A stretch of 64,000 nucleotides of DNA from Blattamonas nauphoetae. Its lineage: Eukaryota > Preaxostyla > Oxymonadida. The first letter of the stretch is position 1. Each line of letters opens with the position of its first letter. Both the position numbers and the translations under genes were made by a program. Where the stretch lies: contig JARBJD010000189.1 of assembly GCA_033064195.1 (NCBI GenBank), positions 1-64,000 on the forward strand, given 5' to 3'. Below the pieces are notes generated by a model. The model was given only the letters and a program-made list of their open reading frames with translations. It searched no databases and was not told where the DNA came from. This document shows, piece after piece, positions 2,300-12,600 of the stretch.

Positions 2300-4958
2300 T
2301 CAAGATTCAGGAAGTTGAAGCTGCCTCAACTCACCCTGGATAACACCCTGAGCCTCTCTGATCTTCTGAGCCAGGGCAGCGTCATCCTGGAGAAGGGCGA
2401 ATCCTTCCTGCAGACCAAGCTCGAGAAGCATCCCTGTGATCTGTCCCGCTCTTTCCGCGTCCACTTCCTCAACCTTTGTGTAAATGAATTCTCCCACGTA
2501 CTGCTGCTTGTCCTCATCAGCCATCTCTCTGAACTCATCCATGTTGAATCCTGGCGGAAGATTTATCAGTGTACCACCAATTGGAATCTGCGAACTTCCG
2601 GAGGAACCGCCGATAACATCCTGAGCCTCCCTGATTTTCTCGGCAAGGCCAGCGTCATCCTGGAGAAGGGCGAATCCTTCCTGCAGACCAAGCTCGAGAA
2701 GCATCCCTGTGATCTGTCCCGCTCTTTCCGCGTCCACTTCCTCAACCTTTGTGTAAATGAATTCTCCCACGTACTGCTGCTTGTCCTCATCAGCCATCTC
2801 TCTGAACTCATCCATGTTGAATCCTGTTGGAAGATTGGATGGTCGGAATTGCGGCGCACCGATTGGCATGCCCATGCCCATCTGACCCATTCCCATCGGA
2901 GGCATGTAGTTCATCGGCATCTGCAGCAATCCAGGCATCCCCATCTGACCCACACTGGGCACACCTGAAGACATGCCCCACATCATCATTCCCTGTGGAT
3001 ACAGACTTGGTATCTGCATTCCCTGGCCATAGACTCGAGCTCCCATTGGAGGTTGGGTTCGGGGAGCTCGTTTGCGATCGCTCTGAACAAAGTTAATCTG
3101 AAGACGTCGACCCTGAATTTCTGTTTCACTGAGCTTGAGAATGCATTGACGTGCATCTTCGTCTTTTTCAAAGAGGCAGAAACCGAACCCGCGAGATGTG
3201 CCGTCTTCGCTGCGGACAATCTGGGAACTTGTCACTGGTCCGAACGACTCAAACAAGGTGCGGAATTCCTCGTCGGTCATTTCCAGGGGCAAGTTGCTCA
3301 CAAGCAAGTTCCTCCATTTTGTCTCCTCCTTCAGCTGCCTCTGTTTCTTCAGCTCCGTCTTTGAGAGAGCAATGGAAACGTTGAGTGGTCTCCCTTTCAA
3401 CTCCTTGCCGTTCATCTCATCCACTGCCTTTTGTGCTAATTCTTCGCTCACAAATTTGGCAAAGCCAAAGCCACGAGAGTTTCCTCTTGAATCGAAAATG
3501 ACGGTACACTCTGCATCCGCTGAGATCGGTTCAAAGAAAACCTGCAAATCCTTTTTCGTCACAGTGCCAGCGAGATTATCAACATACACAGTATCATGGA
3601 CTCTTTGCTGTGCGATTGTGGTTGCTTGTTGCTCAATGATTTGTTGCATCTGCGCTTTCTCTCTTTCGAGTTGCGCAATCGTGTTGTCTCGCTCGCTGAG
3701 CCGTTCGAGAAGCTGTTCTACTGTCCGTTCAGTGCTGTCCAGTTCTTCGCGGATGAATCGCGAGAGTGGTGTTTCCTCTCCCAAAATCGAACGGAGTCGA
3801 CCTGACCGAATCAGCTCAGCAGACGACAGTCGTTCCAAAGGATTCTGAATGTGGAAGGGAAAACAGAAAACGAATAAAGAGAGAGAAGAGAAGGAGAAAA
3901 TCACACTTTGCTCAGAAGGAAACACAGCAGAGGTTCCGCAGTGTTCGCGATCGTCGCTGGTCGGCACACTGCCTGAACATCAAATCCTTTCACACTTTCT
4001 GCAATCTCCACAGCATTCTGTCCCGAAATCCACGCCTTCCCTGTCAGCAATTCCAGCACAATCAGCCCAAACGCCCACATGTCTCCTGCCTGCGACACAC
4101 TTCCAACATTCCCTCCCAAAACAAACATTTCGGGCCCCCAGAACTGCATCGTCCCACACTCCGCCGCATTCCACGTCTTTTGAGTCCCGACTCCAGCCAC
4201 TCCTCCAAAGTCCCCTGAAACACGAAGAAAAACAGAAAGCGTGAGATTGGACGAAGAACGAGCAAGAAGATGATCAACACAAATCATTGCACATACCCAG
4301 CTTCGCTGTTCCATCAGCCCCAATCAGAATATTCGATGGCTTCACATCGCCATACACCTCATTTCGAGAGTGCAGAAACCCCAGCCCAGCCAACACATCT
4401 TGCACAATTCGGAACACTTTCTGACCATCATCAACAGCCACAAAAAGCAGCCAGTGACCCAAAAAGGGAGAAGACAACATGAAGAGGGAGAAGAAAACAA
4501 TACCACTCGATCCATCAGCGTCCCCAGCTTTTGTCCTTCCGACATCCGATCAGCCAAAGAACACGAGCACAGCTCCAGAACCACAAAGTGTGCGGTGTCG
4601 CCCTCGATCGCTTCCACAAATCCAACAACATTTTTGTGTTGATTCTTTTGCAGTTTCGAGATTTCATGCTCGTTCTTGTTGAAATCTGCTTCCGATGTGA
4701 ACGGCAGCACTTTCATCGCAAAATGTTCATCCGATCCCGTTTTCAACACTTCATGCACTGACCCAAATCGACCCTGGCCCAATGTTCGGATAAACTTGTC
4801 TGACAAGACAAAAAAGGAGAGTCAATGAACGATGAGAATTGAGATGGTGAAAATAAGGATGCATATTGAATATAAATCTGAGAGAGGGAAGGAAGATGCA
4901 CACATGGTTCGGGAACTTTCACTTGGAATTGTTTTTTCGCTTTCGGTTGAGCTGTCAT
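2300..4958 (-). CDS. Gene A: protein kinase fused to two RRMs and two PABC/MLLE domains
   Basis: Five exons fit in one frame with GT-AG introns: 4958-4904, 4799-4504, 4420-4297, 4214-3907 and 3844-2300, giving about 775 residues. Residues about 20-275 are a Ser/Thr-type kinase: glycine loop GQGRFGSV, Lys48 in FAMK, catalytic-loop YGDVKPSN (Asp142 kept, the usual His-Arg replaced), and DFG near 160. A short coiled coil (about 280-340) follows. Next come RRM1 (about 345-419, RNP1-like SRGFGFAKF) and RRM2 (about 439-514, SRGFGFCLF), a Met/Gly/Pro linker, and two near-identical MLLE domains (about 603-672 and 694-763, each with GQITGMLLELGL). RRMs bind RNA and MLLE domains bind PAM2 peptides in poly(A)-binding proteins, so a kinase acting on mRNPs or translation factors is the likely role (inference). 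The ATG at 4958 is the first in frame; the kinase is nearly duplicated in gene B. Confidence 0.85.
2348..2826 (-). repeat. Tandem duplication encoding two MLLE domains
   Basis: About 205 bp are repeated almost exactly (about 2348-2552 and 2621-2826), covering FNMDEFREMADEDKQQYVGE through the MLLE motif and LLQDDA. The copies differ at only a few positions, mainly near the AGLAEK/AALAQK end. The spacing suggests a recent tandem duplication of one PABC domain in gene A. Confidence 0.85.
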
Positions 4959-7713: not shown

Positions 7714-10700
7714 TCAAAGTCGTTTGAGCCACTTCACTTCGACTGACTGATTCTCAACACGGAATCCAGTTGTGATTCCGAGGCAGAGAGGAGAAGGGAT
7801 GTCGGTGAAGATCCCAGACTGTTCCTCATCGTCCACAAACAGTCGAGCTTCTCGAGTCCTCATGTTCACACGAATCGCTGCAATATCTCCAATTCGATCG
7901 CAAATCTTGTTTGTTCCTTCTGGCTTGAATTCTTCATCATTTGTCCACATTCGACCATCCCAAAGGGTGAATTCACCACCAAACCCATTCGTCCAACTCC
8001 CACAAGTCTCTTGCGTGGCATCTTCGGGAAGTGGATGTTGGAGGAAGCCAAGCACTGAAAAGATGAGAAGAGAGAAGAACACACTCACAAGATGGAAAGT
8101 GTGTTCACTTGCTCTGATTTTGAGTTCCCATTCTCCCTCGTCGATCCGACGAGTGAAAGCTGTTCTCCAAGTAACGCCCTGTTCGAGATTTATGATTTGT
8201 GTGAGAGTGGTTGGAGTGAGTGTGTGAGCAGTTCGGTCGAGTGTTTGGAGTGCTTCAGTGCCAAACCAAATCGAATGATCAGCGAAATGCTGTTTCATCT
8301 CGTTGATTTGTGATTTCTGAATTCTCCTTTCCTCAAGAGCTGCTCTTTCGAGTTCATCACTTTCGCGCCGTCGTTTGAGCCACAACACTTCAACAGATTT
8401 TATGCGTCCACCAGTTGTGATTGCGAGGCAGAGAGGAGAAGGGATGTCGGTGAAGATCCCAGGCTGTTCCTCATCGTCCACAAACAGTCGAGCTTCTCGA
8501 GTCCTCATGTTCACTCGAATCGCTGCTGTCTGCCCAATTCGATCACACTTCCTGTTCGTTCCTTCGGGTTTGAATTCTCGATGCGATCTCCACATTGTTC
8601 CATTCCACACGACGAAATCGCCGCCAATCCCATTTCGATTGAATCCACAATCGTGTTGTGTGGCATTTTCAGGAAGTGGATGTCTGAGGAAGCCAAGCAC
8701 TGAAAAGATGAAGAGAGAGAAGAACACACTCACATGGACTAAAGGGTTGTCAGTTGCTCTGATTTTCAGTTCCCACTCTCCCTCGTCAATCGGAAATGTG
8801 AATGCTGTTCTCCAGGGATTGTCTGTTGGAGTGACGATGATTTGTGTGAGAGTGGTTGGAGTGAGTGTGTGAACAGTTCTGTCGAGTGTTTGGAGAGATT
8901 CTGTTCCAATCCAGATCGGAAGAGCGGCCAGTTGCTGTTTCATTATTTCGTTTTCTGATTTCAGAGTTCTCCTTTCTTCGAGAGCTGCTATTTCGAGTTC
9001 ATCGTTTCCTCGAAGTCGTTTGAGCCACTTCACTTCAACTGAATCATTGTCTTCATCGAATCCAGTTGTGATTGCGAGGCAGAGAGGAGAAGGGATGTCG
9101 GGGAAGATCCCAGGCTGTTCCTCATCGTCCACAAACAGTCGAGCTTCTCTTGTCCACATGTTCACTCGAATCGCTGCTGTCTGTCCGCCTCTCTCCCACT
9201 TCTTGTTTGTTCCTGGAGGCTTGAATTTTCCTGATTTCAACATAGCTCCATTCCAAAGAATGAAATCTCCACCAATCCCATCTACCCAACCTCCACAACT
9301 CCTCTGTGTGGCATTTTCAGGAAGTGGGTATCTGACAAAGCCAAGACCTGCAAAGATCAAAAGAGAGAAGAACACACTCATATTCACGAAAGTGTTTTTA
9401 CTTGCTTTGATTTTCAGTTCCCACTCTCCCATGTCGATCGGACGAGTGAAAGCTGTTCTGCATTGTCTCTCGAATCTGAAGAGTTGAGTGAGAGTGGTTG
9501 GAGTGAGCGAGTGAACAGTTCTGTCGAGTGTTTGGAGAGATTTGGTGCCAACCCAAATCGGAACATCGGCAAGCAGCTCTTTCTGCAGAGCGATCGTCTT
9601 TGATTGGTCCTCAACGATGTGTTGTATCTGATCTTTCTCTTTTTTCGAGTGTCACAATCGTGCTGTCCAGTTCTTCGCGGATGAAGTGCGAGAGTGGTGT
9701 TTCCTCTCCCAAAATCGAACGGAGTCGACCTGACCGAATCAGCTCAGCAGACGAGAGTCGTTCCAGAGGATTCTGAAGAAGGAAGGGAAAAGGTGAAAAC
9801 GAACAAAGAGAGAGAATTGAGAGAAGAGAAGGAGGAAATCACACTTTGCTCAGAAGGAAACACAGCAGAGGTTCCACAGTATTCGGGATCGTCGCTTGTC
9901 GGCACACTGCCTGAACATCAAATCGTTTCACACTTTCTGCAATCTCCACAGCATTCTGTCCCGAAATCCACGCCTTCCCTGTCAGCAATTCCAGCACAAT
10001 CAGCCCAAACGCCCACATGTCTCCTGCCTGCGACACACTTCCAACATTCCCTCCCAAAACAAACATTTCGGGCCCCCAGAACTGCATCGTCCCACACTCC
10101 GCCGCATTCCACGTCTTTTGAGTCCCGACTCCAGCCACTCCTCCAAAGTCCCCTGAAACAGGAAGAAAAACAGAAAGCGTGAGATTGGACGATGAACGAG
10201 CAAAACGATGATCAACACAAATCATTGCACATACCCAGCTTCGCTGTTCCATCAACCCCAATCAGAATATTCGATGGCTTCACATCGCCATACACCTCAT
10301 TTCGAGAGTGCAGAAACCCCAGCCCAGCCAACACATCTTGCACAATTCGGAACACTTTCTGAACATCATCAACAACAAACCACACAAGCAGCCAGTGACC
10401 CAAAAAGGGAGAGGACAACGTGAAGAGGGAGAAGAAAACAATACCACTCGATCCATCAGCGTCCCCAGCTTTCGCACTTCCGACATCCGATCAGCCAAAG
10501 AACACGAGCTCAGCTCCAGAACCACAAAGTGTGCGGTGTCGCCCTCGATCGCTTCCACAAATCCAACAACATTTTTGTGTTGATTCTTTTGCAGTTTCGA
10601 GATTTCATGCTCGTTCTTGTTGAAATCTGCTTCCGATGTGAACGGCAGCACTTTCATCGCAAAATGTTCATCCGATCCCGTTTTCAATACTTCATGCACT

Positions 10701-10900
10701 GATCCGAATCGACCCTGGCCCAGTGTTCGGATAAACTTGTCTGACAAGACAAAAAGAGAGGGAGAAAGAAGCGATGAGAATTGTGATAATTAAGACAAGC
10801 ATGCAAATCGAATATAAAACTGAGAGAGGGAAGGAAGATGCACACATGGTTCGGGAACTTTCACTTGGAATTGTTTTTTCGCTTTCGGTTGAGCTGTAAT
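7714..10900 (-). pseudogene. Gene B: kinase plus three SPRY/B30.2-like domains, start and frame damaged
   Basis: The exon structure matches gene A: 10900-10846, 10740-10445, 10358-10235, 10152-9845 and 9772-7714. The kinase is nearly identical to gene A's (GQGRFGSV, FAMK, YGDVKPSN, DFGGVAGV, WGPE). After LDST in the linker the protein switches to three SPRY-like repeats, each running from (P/S)IW.GT..LQTLDRT to DIPSPLCLAITTG and ending KWLKRL or LWLKRR. Two defects are visible. The ATG used in gene A reads ATT here with an upstream in-frame stop, and one extra A in an A-run near 9643 shifts the frame in the linker. The SPRY frame itself is clean from about 9635 to the TGA at 7714. It could be a recent pseudogene, or an assembly error plus another start. 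Without the extra base the product would be about 945 residues. Confidence 0.7.
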
Positions 10901-10999
10901 TCTTCACAGCTTTGCAAACAATGGTCAGATCGCAGCTTGACAATTAAAACAACTTTCGGAAACACTTTCAAGAGGAGACGACGATTCCAAATCGGTTTG

Positions 11000-12600
11000 C
11001 GTACAGTAAACCGCTTTTCACCTCTTCTGTGTTTCCAGACCCATTCTTCGTTTCATCTCAAAATTCGTCGTTTCATTTGGGTGACCTTCCTCTTTTGTGT
11101 CACCCAGCACCATATAGCCTCATTTACCCATCGTTGTCCCGTCTCTCCGTCATCCATCTTCAGGAATCAGCTCATAAATGGAGGCACAACCAAAGAGAAA
11201 CATTTTGTCGGCTTTTCTCAGAATGAGATCAATCGTGGAGATCATGTTCGTGTCGCATCCAACAATCTTCAATTTGAAGGACTCGCCACACCATTCATCC
11301 ATTCACACAATCTGGAAGTGGAAGACAGATCGATTCAAAAACACAAACGGGATCCCTCTTCGACTTTTATCGAAAAGTCCACCTTTGTTGCATGTCTTTT
11401 CAATACGACACTTTGCGTGGAGAAGTTTGTTTTCCATGTTATTGGGCGGAAGGATGGAAGATTGAAGTTGACCCGTCTTCACTTTGGGTGTCAGAATGCA
11501 CGGTGTTGTCAGAAGGGTCGCTGTCGCCATTTGGGATTTCGGGAGGAGGAGGATGCAGCGGTTCGTCGATTTCGATTCTGTCGTCGAAGTGCTCAGGCTG
11601 GAATGAAAGAGTGATGTCGCTGCCTCCTTTGACAAGCCTCACTCTGCCATCCAAACAGGATCCGACTCATCAGGACAACTCGACGGACACTTTTGACACT
11701 TCGATGAATGCTGTGCATGGGTCAGGAGTGTGTCTGTCCTCGATTGATCTTGGCATCGGAACCAGCCCGCTGTTTGACTTTGGGTGCTCAATTCGCTTTC
11801 AACTGCTGTCCCCTCAACGACGATCTCGCTGACTCACTCTTCCCGCCGAAACGTGTCCAGTGTCGCTTCCGAAACAACACGCCAACTGTTCGCTCAGACT
11901 CGACAGATTTTGGTGTCGTGTGTTATGGAAGACAGGACAAACCACTTTTCAGGGACAGTCACTGCGGATGTGAACATGTACGGGTCATTGATCGCCTCGA
12001 ATTCGCCATTCTTGAAATGTTCATCAAATCTCGCTCCATCCGACGACCATCCAACCTCCACCCTCAACCATCGAACAGGAACTGATCTCATCGACATTGC
12101 AAACGGCATGGATGGGCAGGATGTCGACATCACTCGCTGCGCCTTCACTCACACGACGAGCTCAACGAACCCTTCCGCAGTTCATTTCACTGCACAGCCG
12201 AGAACACCAAAATCGACGCGTGTCCTTCTTCGATTGCAGTGGAACCTCAGGCTGGGCAGGTGCTGTTTGCTCATCCACAGATCACAGACAACACTACATC
12301 TCGTTCGCGTCGTGTGTCGCTGTCCACTGAATGACCTCCGCTGACAATTGGGGATTCCCGTCAGCGGATCTCCGCTTGATTTCTGGCGAGTGATGCCGGT
12401 CACAGTGTCGTCATCTCACTCGATTGTGATGTGGCTGTGCAAAATGGATTCTCGATTCTGGTGAAGACAGGAAGCACCGAACGAAAACTCTCATTCGCCG
12501 AGGATCGCTCAACCAACCAACACGCTCGCCTCCTTTCGCTGTTCTCCCGTCAGACGAGGCGAGCGTGAAAGAGGAGAAAGAGGAGGAGAAGCGAACAGCA
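11000..12600 (+). pseudogene. Broken beta-helix-like surface protein gene, copy 2
   Basis: This is a duplicate of the sequence at 5.2-7.3 kb, with the same frame switches: 11392-11832 (SGVCLSSIDLGIGTSPLFDFG), then 11784-12330 (GTDLIDIANGMDGQDVDITR). Part of the later coding sequence is deleted relative to copy 1, and similarity resumes at about 12490 (matching about 7235). It sits divergently from gene B, as copy 1 does from gene A, so the pair was copied as a block. Confidence 0.5.

Follow-up and report, generated by a model that had tools for sequence, protein, structure and literature searches.

Docking between MLLE domains and PAM2 motifs is central both to translation and to the decay of mRNA. 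In the canonical poly(A)-binding protein (PABP), RRM1 and RRM2 are the main poly(A) binders. UBR5/HYD is a HECT ubiquitin ligase that is not known to contain a kinase, and the RRM-like module of UHMK1/KIS is a U2AF homology motif (UHM), a protein-binding variant of the RRM; UHMK1/KIS is not known to carry an MLLE. According to PMC9249222, which also names the HECT domain of UBR5, Rrm4 of Ustilago has three RRMs and three MLLEs. Its third MLLE binds PAM2-like motifs; MLLE1 and MLLE2 are without a glycine tied to PAM2 binding, and neither binds PAM2 motifs. PAN3 is described in PMC4158885 as a pseudokinase with a coiled coil that reaches PABP through a PAM2 of its own. Chimeras of ataxin-2 with kinase domains have been predicted in a mayfly and in fishes, and PMC12898128 considers that they probably arise from transcriptional readthrough.

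The published assembly of the gut-dwelling oxymonad Blattamonas nauphoetae (PMC10703272) comprises 879 contigs and 88,537,989 bases with 44.96% G+C, was produced from Nanopore and Illumina reads, and was accompanied by RNA-seq that served gene prediction. The assembly analysed here has 837 contigs and 88,311,006 bases; the window is bases 1-64000 of one contig (C100, 145544 bases). A first-pass annotation of this window had proposed that a single gene carries a protein kinase, a coiled coil, two RRMs and two MLLE domains, and that no kinase-PABP fusion had been described. No kinase-PABP or kinase-MLLE fusion was among the matches listed in open-licence papers.

Structure of the fusion gene

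The gene occupies 4958-2300 on the minus strand, to which all of its features below belong, and consists of five exons that splice in frame into 2328 nt, encoding 775 aa with a sole, terminal stop codon. Its introns are of the GT...AG type and measure 104, 83, 82 and 62 bases; splice sites were predicted from consensus and paralogy, and the model leans on paralogues. Exon 1 (4904-4958) contains the start codon and MTAQPKAKKQFQVKVPEP, and is matched in 23 of the 30 kinase loci compared, a set that includes the gene itself and its duplicate at C810:8930. Exon 2 (4504-4799) encodes the kinase N-lobe, with the GQGRFGSV loop and the AMKV lysine; exon 3 (4297-4420) the catalytic loop, YGDVKPSN; exon 4 (3907-4214; present at 30/30 loci) the DFG motif, activation segment, GPE and C-lobe; and exon 5 (2300-3844) the kinase end, NPLERLSS, followed by the coiled coil, both RRMs, a linker, both MLLEs and the stop. 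These kinase exons are collinear across paralogous loci, and it is the paralogues that fix the frame in which the last exon runs open, with no stop, into the RRMs. Genome-wide, 74 matches were obtained to the beginning of that exon, which consists of NPLERLSSAELIRSGRL and the coiled coil, and three of these lie on the duplicate contig C810. The exon joining had been called phase-consistent, and this holds for the whole open frame, with both outer ends and the last intron (3906-3845) as the first-pass annotation gave them. Downstream, at 99-1987 of the same strand, the window contains very acidic, Glu/Asp-rich low-complexity frames with strong strand bias.

A profile search for the three expected families, as the first-pass annotation had proposed, recovered them all: Pkinase (PF00069; E 1.8e-41) at residues 19-274, covering profile positions 1-259 of 263, RRM_1 in two stretches (2.1e-36) and MLLE in two stretches (8.1e-36). 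Given these E-values and the same order of kinase exons in paralogous loci, the match exceeds chance. With domains, open frame and collinear exons in agreement, the proposed single-gene architecture is near certain as judged from sequence.

An active kinase is expected to possess a glycine loop, a lysine, a catalytic Asp, the DFG Asp, the PE of APE and a late Arg, and motif positions and alignment to PKG show that all of these are retained. The catalytic loop reads YGD rather than HRD in 30/30 aligned kinase rows, this gene's included. In the PDB the kinase matches 2478 distinct sequences, with PKG and PLK2 at the top, and we therefore claim no kinase subfamily. The coiled coil (3608-3760), common to the kinase paralogues, was recognized from a heptad contrast equalled by 292 of 20000 shuffles, and from a structure model of exon 5 in which it is predicted as a long helix, the model being of modest confidence (mean pLDDT 53.1).

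The remainder of the protein corresponds to RRM3-RRM4-linker-MLLE of a separate PABP gene in the same genome, C826 (546 aa; four RRM_1 stretches, one MLLE), with DNA identity of 80% over 3598-2857 and 82-84% in the MLLE stretches. The first RRM (3383-3589) is RRM3-like, with RNP2 VYVDNL and RNP1 RGFGFAKF, and the second (3101-3307) is RRM4-like, with RNP2 LLVSNL and RNP1 RGFGFCLF. RNP2 usually has an aromatic residue, which is missing from the second RRM; RNP1 motifs are present in both. MLLE 1 (2612-2803; YVGEFIY, ITGMLLE) matches PABP MLLE domains in the PDB, and MLLE 2 (2339-2530) arose from it by a recent tandem duplication, the two sharing 95% identity over 75 codons (dS 0.11). The MLLE motifs are kept, and both domains retain the glycine that PMC9249222 ties to PAM2 binding. 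The best PDB match of the RRMs is the polyadenylate-binding protein 6r5k (1.4e-50), which aligns in three stretches, of which the strongest covers chain residues 133-303, so that this match alone names no particular RRMs; the Foldseek matches of the modelled exon 5 were proteins with tandem RRMs, headed by HuR, with PABP RRM1-2 after it.

Between this gene and C826, pairwise dN/dS (NG86) is 0.26 for the RRMs (dS 0.68) and 0.25 and 0.31 for the MLLEs, and three-taxon subtraction gives about 0.35 on the RRM branch leading to the fusion. By these ratios the tail is constrained, and part of the low dN/dS may predate the fusion. For the kinase, dN/dS (NG86) is 0.39 against its homologue on C656, 0.21 against that on C117 and 0.42 against the neighbouring paralogue (14 changes in all).

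Junction and origin of the kinase half

Kinase-side DNA similarity stops at 3732 and similarity to C826 begins at 3598, which places the fusion junction between these positions, close to the end of the coiled coil. A single methionine, residue 327, occurs from residue 262 to residue 360, and it falls inside the coiled coil; from 5200 to 1500 the DNA has one AATAAA, past the stop, at 2120. A reading as two separate genes was rejected, there being no stop or plausible start from the kinase end to the RRM. An assembly join had been named as one circumstance that would overturn the gene; it is unlikely, given an identical junction on contig C810. The two contigs are 98.6% identical over 2901 columns, with 39 deleted and 0 inserted positions on C810 in 26 events, many of them in base runs by eye, and with 3 (BLAST) or 18 (MAFFT) mismatches. 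Such identity, with deletions only, rules out C810 as an independent copy; it duplicates the first part of C100 with many errors and probably went unpolished.

The segment 3732-6378 appears to be a duplicate of 9660-12322, or to have been converted by it, with a patchy identity of 89.3% over 2673 columns; 9660-12322 comprises the kinase half of a neighbouring gene in the same orientation and the region upstream of it. This neighbour (7714-10738, minus strand) has kinase exons from 10738 down and three repeats of a domain (7717-9651) that matched no Pfam family above cut-off. As assembled in C100, the frame of its kinase end closes after 53 aa, and a different frame encodes the repeats, the register breaking at about 9640; the copy on C810 reads on, and the out-of-register frames may reflect decay or an assembly error. 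The same repeated domain (PIWVGTESLQTLDRT...WELKIRA...FVDDEEQPGIF...), with no Pfam family above cut-off, is carried at C90 and C345, whose kinases are near-identical to that of the fusion gene. Single-sequence structure prediction for the neighbour's tail domain gave a mean pLDDT of 31.6.

Exon 2 of the fusion gene is 97-98% identical to those of C90, C345 and the neighbour (10448-10738), and the kinase tree places these four together (100/100). That tree was built from 27 of the 30 loci, after dropping C83:128586 (too short), C618 (no exon 2 match) and C810:8930. They belong to a family of some 60 close paralogues (63 rows at >=72% identity, C810 included, head the best 150 candidates scored), in which the head is kept and tails differ at the 30 loci compared. 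For the kinases of the fusion loci on C100, C117 and C656, described below, a single clade received a p-AU of 0.0377, and the pairs C100+C656 (0.212) and C100+C117 (0.28) were not rejected; the MLLE and RRM trees are too weak to bear on a common origin of these three fusions.

These alignments are compatible with duplication followed by tail replacement and equally with an older fusion whose head underwent gene conversion. Exons resemble one another more than introns do between the two neighbours, and the 300 bases before the start are only 71% alike, so the duplication receives no clean date. The present kinase half is recent (dS 0.035-0.047); that the MLLE duplication (dS 0.11) might be older than the kinase half (dS 0.035) is only a hint, as it involves 5 and 6 synonymous changes.

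Kinase-MLLE loci and PAM2 motifs in the genome

A profile search of the genome's contigs for MLLE (PF00658) produced 23 matches at 20 loci, C810 counted, and kinases are joined to MLLE or PABP pieces at four distinct loci, on C100, C490, C656 and C117. At the other 15 MLLE loci there was no kinase-tail exon beside the MLLE among the best 150 candidates, about 1.5 kb being examined round most of them. The recurrence of kinase-PABP joining in this genome is well supported by these alignments, and in our judgement stray joining is a poor account of four such loci drawn from two kinase families.

The locus at C490:266278-267956 (minus strand) encodes a kinase (Pkinase 2.3e-37), a coiled coil and one MLLE (3.6e-9), which aligns no further than profile position 61 of 66. 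The gene model starts at exon 2, no exon 1 having been recognized, and from there to exon 5 the frame is continuous, closing with one stop. Its kinase is 27% identical to that of C100 and belongs to a second expanded family. Bases 1-301 of its last exon resemble other kinase tails (C179, 89.5% over 181 columns; C164, 76% over 319 columns), and bases 323-558 are 81% identical to the PABP-like gene C347. Judged by these similarities it is a fusion independent of the one on C100, with another kinase family and another MLLE source. C656 combines a kinase of the C100 family with three MLLEs, without coiled coil or RRM, and its 308-aa tail frame is open. As assembled, exons 3 and 4 do not join in frame at DFG, which speaks against an intact gene; the context of the exon 4 acceptor is normal in 27 of the 29 loci besides C656, the exceptions, C618 and C810:8930, matching only later in exon 4. 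C117 has a kinase of the C100 family, a coiled coil and four RRM_1 stretches, the last one cut, and is broken as assembled: a deletion in RRM4 puts the MLLE that follows out of frame, and the exon for the kinase N-lobe is incomplete. The frame breaks at both loci may represent decay or assembly errors. Constraint on the tails of C656 and C490 is less clear than in C100, dN/dS (NG86) being 0.86 between MLLEs 2 and 3 of C656 and 0.57 between the MLLEs of C490 and C347.

PABP-like genes with several RRMs and an MLLE include C826 and C279 (four RRM_1 stretches each) and C63 (three in the part examined); together with divergent PABP-like genes these make a large set for a protist. At C256:8667-8843 and C526:27856-28032 an adaptin-like ORF (Adaptin_N at 36.0 bits, slightly below the cut-off of 37) continues without a frame break into what is the 3' end of a C30-type PABP-like gene. 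The part common to both contigs is identical, indicating a recent chimera. C57:507290 and C275:61896 encode PABP-like RRM and MLLE proteins with some 350 extra C-terminal residues that carry no Pfam family.

A genome search for PAM2 (PF07145) yielded 17 matches at E up to 10 (best E 0.0079), with 6/17 above the curated cut-off. The four of these six that were examined read LNPNAEPFYP, LNPNATPFVP, LNPMATAFVP and FNPHADPFVP, all conforming to [L/F]NPxAxxFxP, so that likely ligands for MLLE docking are encoded for the same cell. Proteins bearing them are candidate substrates of the C100 kinase; ORFs with PAM2 peptides lie on C58, C423 and C115.

Possible function of the chimera and known systems

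Our preferred reading, held tentatively and somewhat short of probable, is that this is a real chimeric gene in which a kinase and coiled-coil head was set on the C-terminal half of a PABP, tethering signalling to the translation and decay machinery. Repeated swapping of tails would have placed kinases on docking modules for poly(A) and PAM2; here a head from a large kinase family would have joined RRM3-RRM4-linker-MLLE of a PABP, the MLLE being duplicated afterwards. The coiled coil would pair kinases, RRM3-RRM4 would position them on mRNA and the MLLEs would bind proteins with a PAM2; these partners, or PABP itself, would be phosphorylated by the kinase, so that the tail would serve as an address and the common head as an activity. 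That phosphorylation might be coupled to poly(A)-bound mRNPs or to factors with a PAM2, as the first-pass annotation had suggested, is plausible, with the motifs retained and PAM2 ligands encoded. In support are the in-frame gene with its Pfam domains and intact catalytic, RNP1 and MLLE motifs, a kinase near-identical to neighbours with other tails, the constrained tail, the independent fusion on C490, the further fusions on C656 and C117, and the PAM2 ligands. Against it, two of four fusion loci (C117 and C656) are frame-broken as assembled, the tails of C656 and C490 are less constrained and the MLLE of C490 ends early, and LLVSNL of RRM4 lacks the usual aromatic; the wide variation of tails in the kinase family also means that a functional choice is not proven.

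The main competing explanation, a serious one though we find it less convincing, accepts the chimera and denies it a dedicated role in mRNA metabolism: the gene would be a by-product of tail exchange, weakly or never expressed and prone to decay, like C117 and perhaps C656. Some 60 close paralogues with differing tails, the frame breaks at C117 and C656, and the recency of the present kinase half are what such a process would leave, and MLLE pieces occur also on an adaptin-like ORF and beside a long extra C-terminal region; the failure of exons 3 and 4 of C656 to join raises its probability and lowers that of a maintained function. Yet C100 keeps its signature residues and an unbroken 775-aa frame, its tail is constrained, and, in our judgement, four kinase-MLLE loci from two families tell against it. 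It is improbable that the protein acts as a competitor, its MLLEs and RRMs titrating PAM2 proteins or RNA and its kinase used for self-regulation only. The absence of RRM1-RRM2, the main poly(A) binders of canonical PABP, and the MLLEs without RRMs of C656 would suit that role, but the kinase motifs are retained and pairwise dN/dS of the kinase is below 1 (0.21-0.42).

There is very little likelihood that distinct kinase and PABP-like genes were misjoined by assembly or gene prediction. The gene model was predicted from DNA alone on an assembly of Nanopore and Illumina reads, and C810 and the region near 9640 demonstrate that frame errors or breaks exist in it; however, a single open exon contains both the kinase end and the RRM, with one methionine between them, the junction recurs on C810 (though perhaps from the same reads), and at C490, C656 and C117, which are distinct loci, the junctions differ. 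A broader proposition, which extends the preferred reading of a tethered kinase, is that oxymonads repeatedly evolved MLLE-tethered kinases from at least two distant kinase families and from MLLEs of different PABP-like genes, as a layer phosphorylating PAM2 proteins on poly(A) mRNPs; this we regard as rather unlikely. Two kinase families and two MLLE sources in one genome hint that tethering a kinase to the MLLE-PAM2 hub is of use, and a constant kinase head with differing tails is a natural experiment in modular signalling.

Among the literature matches listed, a kinase with retained catalytic motifs that bears the MLLE side did not appear. The nearest relatives in architecture share one part or another of the C100 protein. 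UHMK1/KIS likewise joins a kinase to an RRM-like module; both RRMs here have RGFGF RNP1 motifs, unlike a UHM. UBR5/HYD is also an enzyme with an MLLE (PDB matches 3ntw and 1i2t), and HECT is not among the six families in the Pfam result for the C100 protein. The ataxin-2 chimeras of PMC12898128 join a kinase to a member of the PABP/PAM2 network, but on the PAM2 side. PAN3 (PMC4158885) likewise combines a kinase fold with a coiled coil and is physically connected to PABP, but is a pseudokinase using the PAM2 side, whereas the C100 protein carries the MLLE side and keeps its kinase motifs. A relationship to PAN3 is unsupported: catalytic residues are present, and the Pan3 profile PF18101 had no match in the C100 protein up to E 0.01 and none genome-wide, the control genomes giving none either. 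Rrm4 shares the arrangement of RRMs followed by several MLLEs as a binding platform but has no kinase (PMC9249222), whereas C100 has two RRMs, two MLLEs, both with the glycine, and a kinase. In its tail the protein resembles PABPC/Pab1, represented here by C826 and also by C279 and C63: RRM3-RRM4, the Met/Gly/Pro-rich linker and MLLE follow in the order of C826, and the C100 protein differs in having two RRMs rather than four, with no RRM1-RRM2, in ending in two MLLEs, and in bearing a kinase and coiled coil in front.
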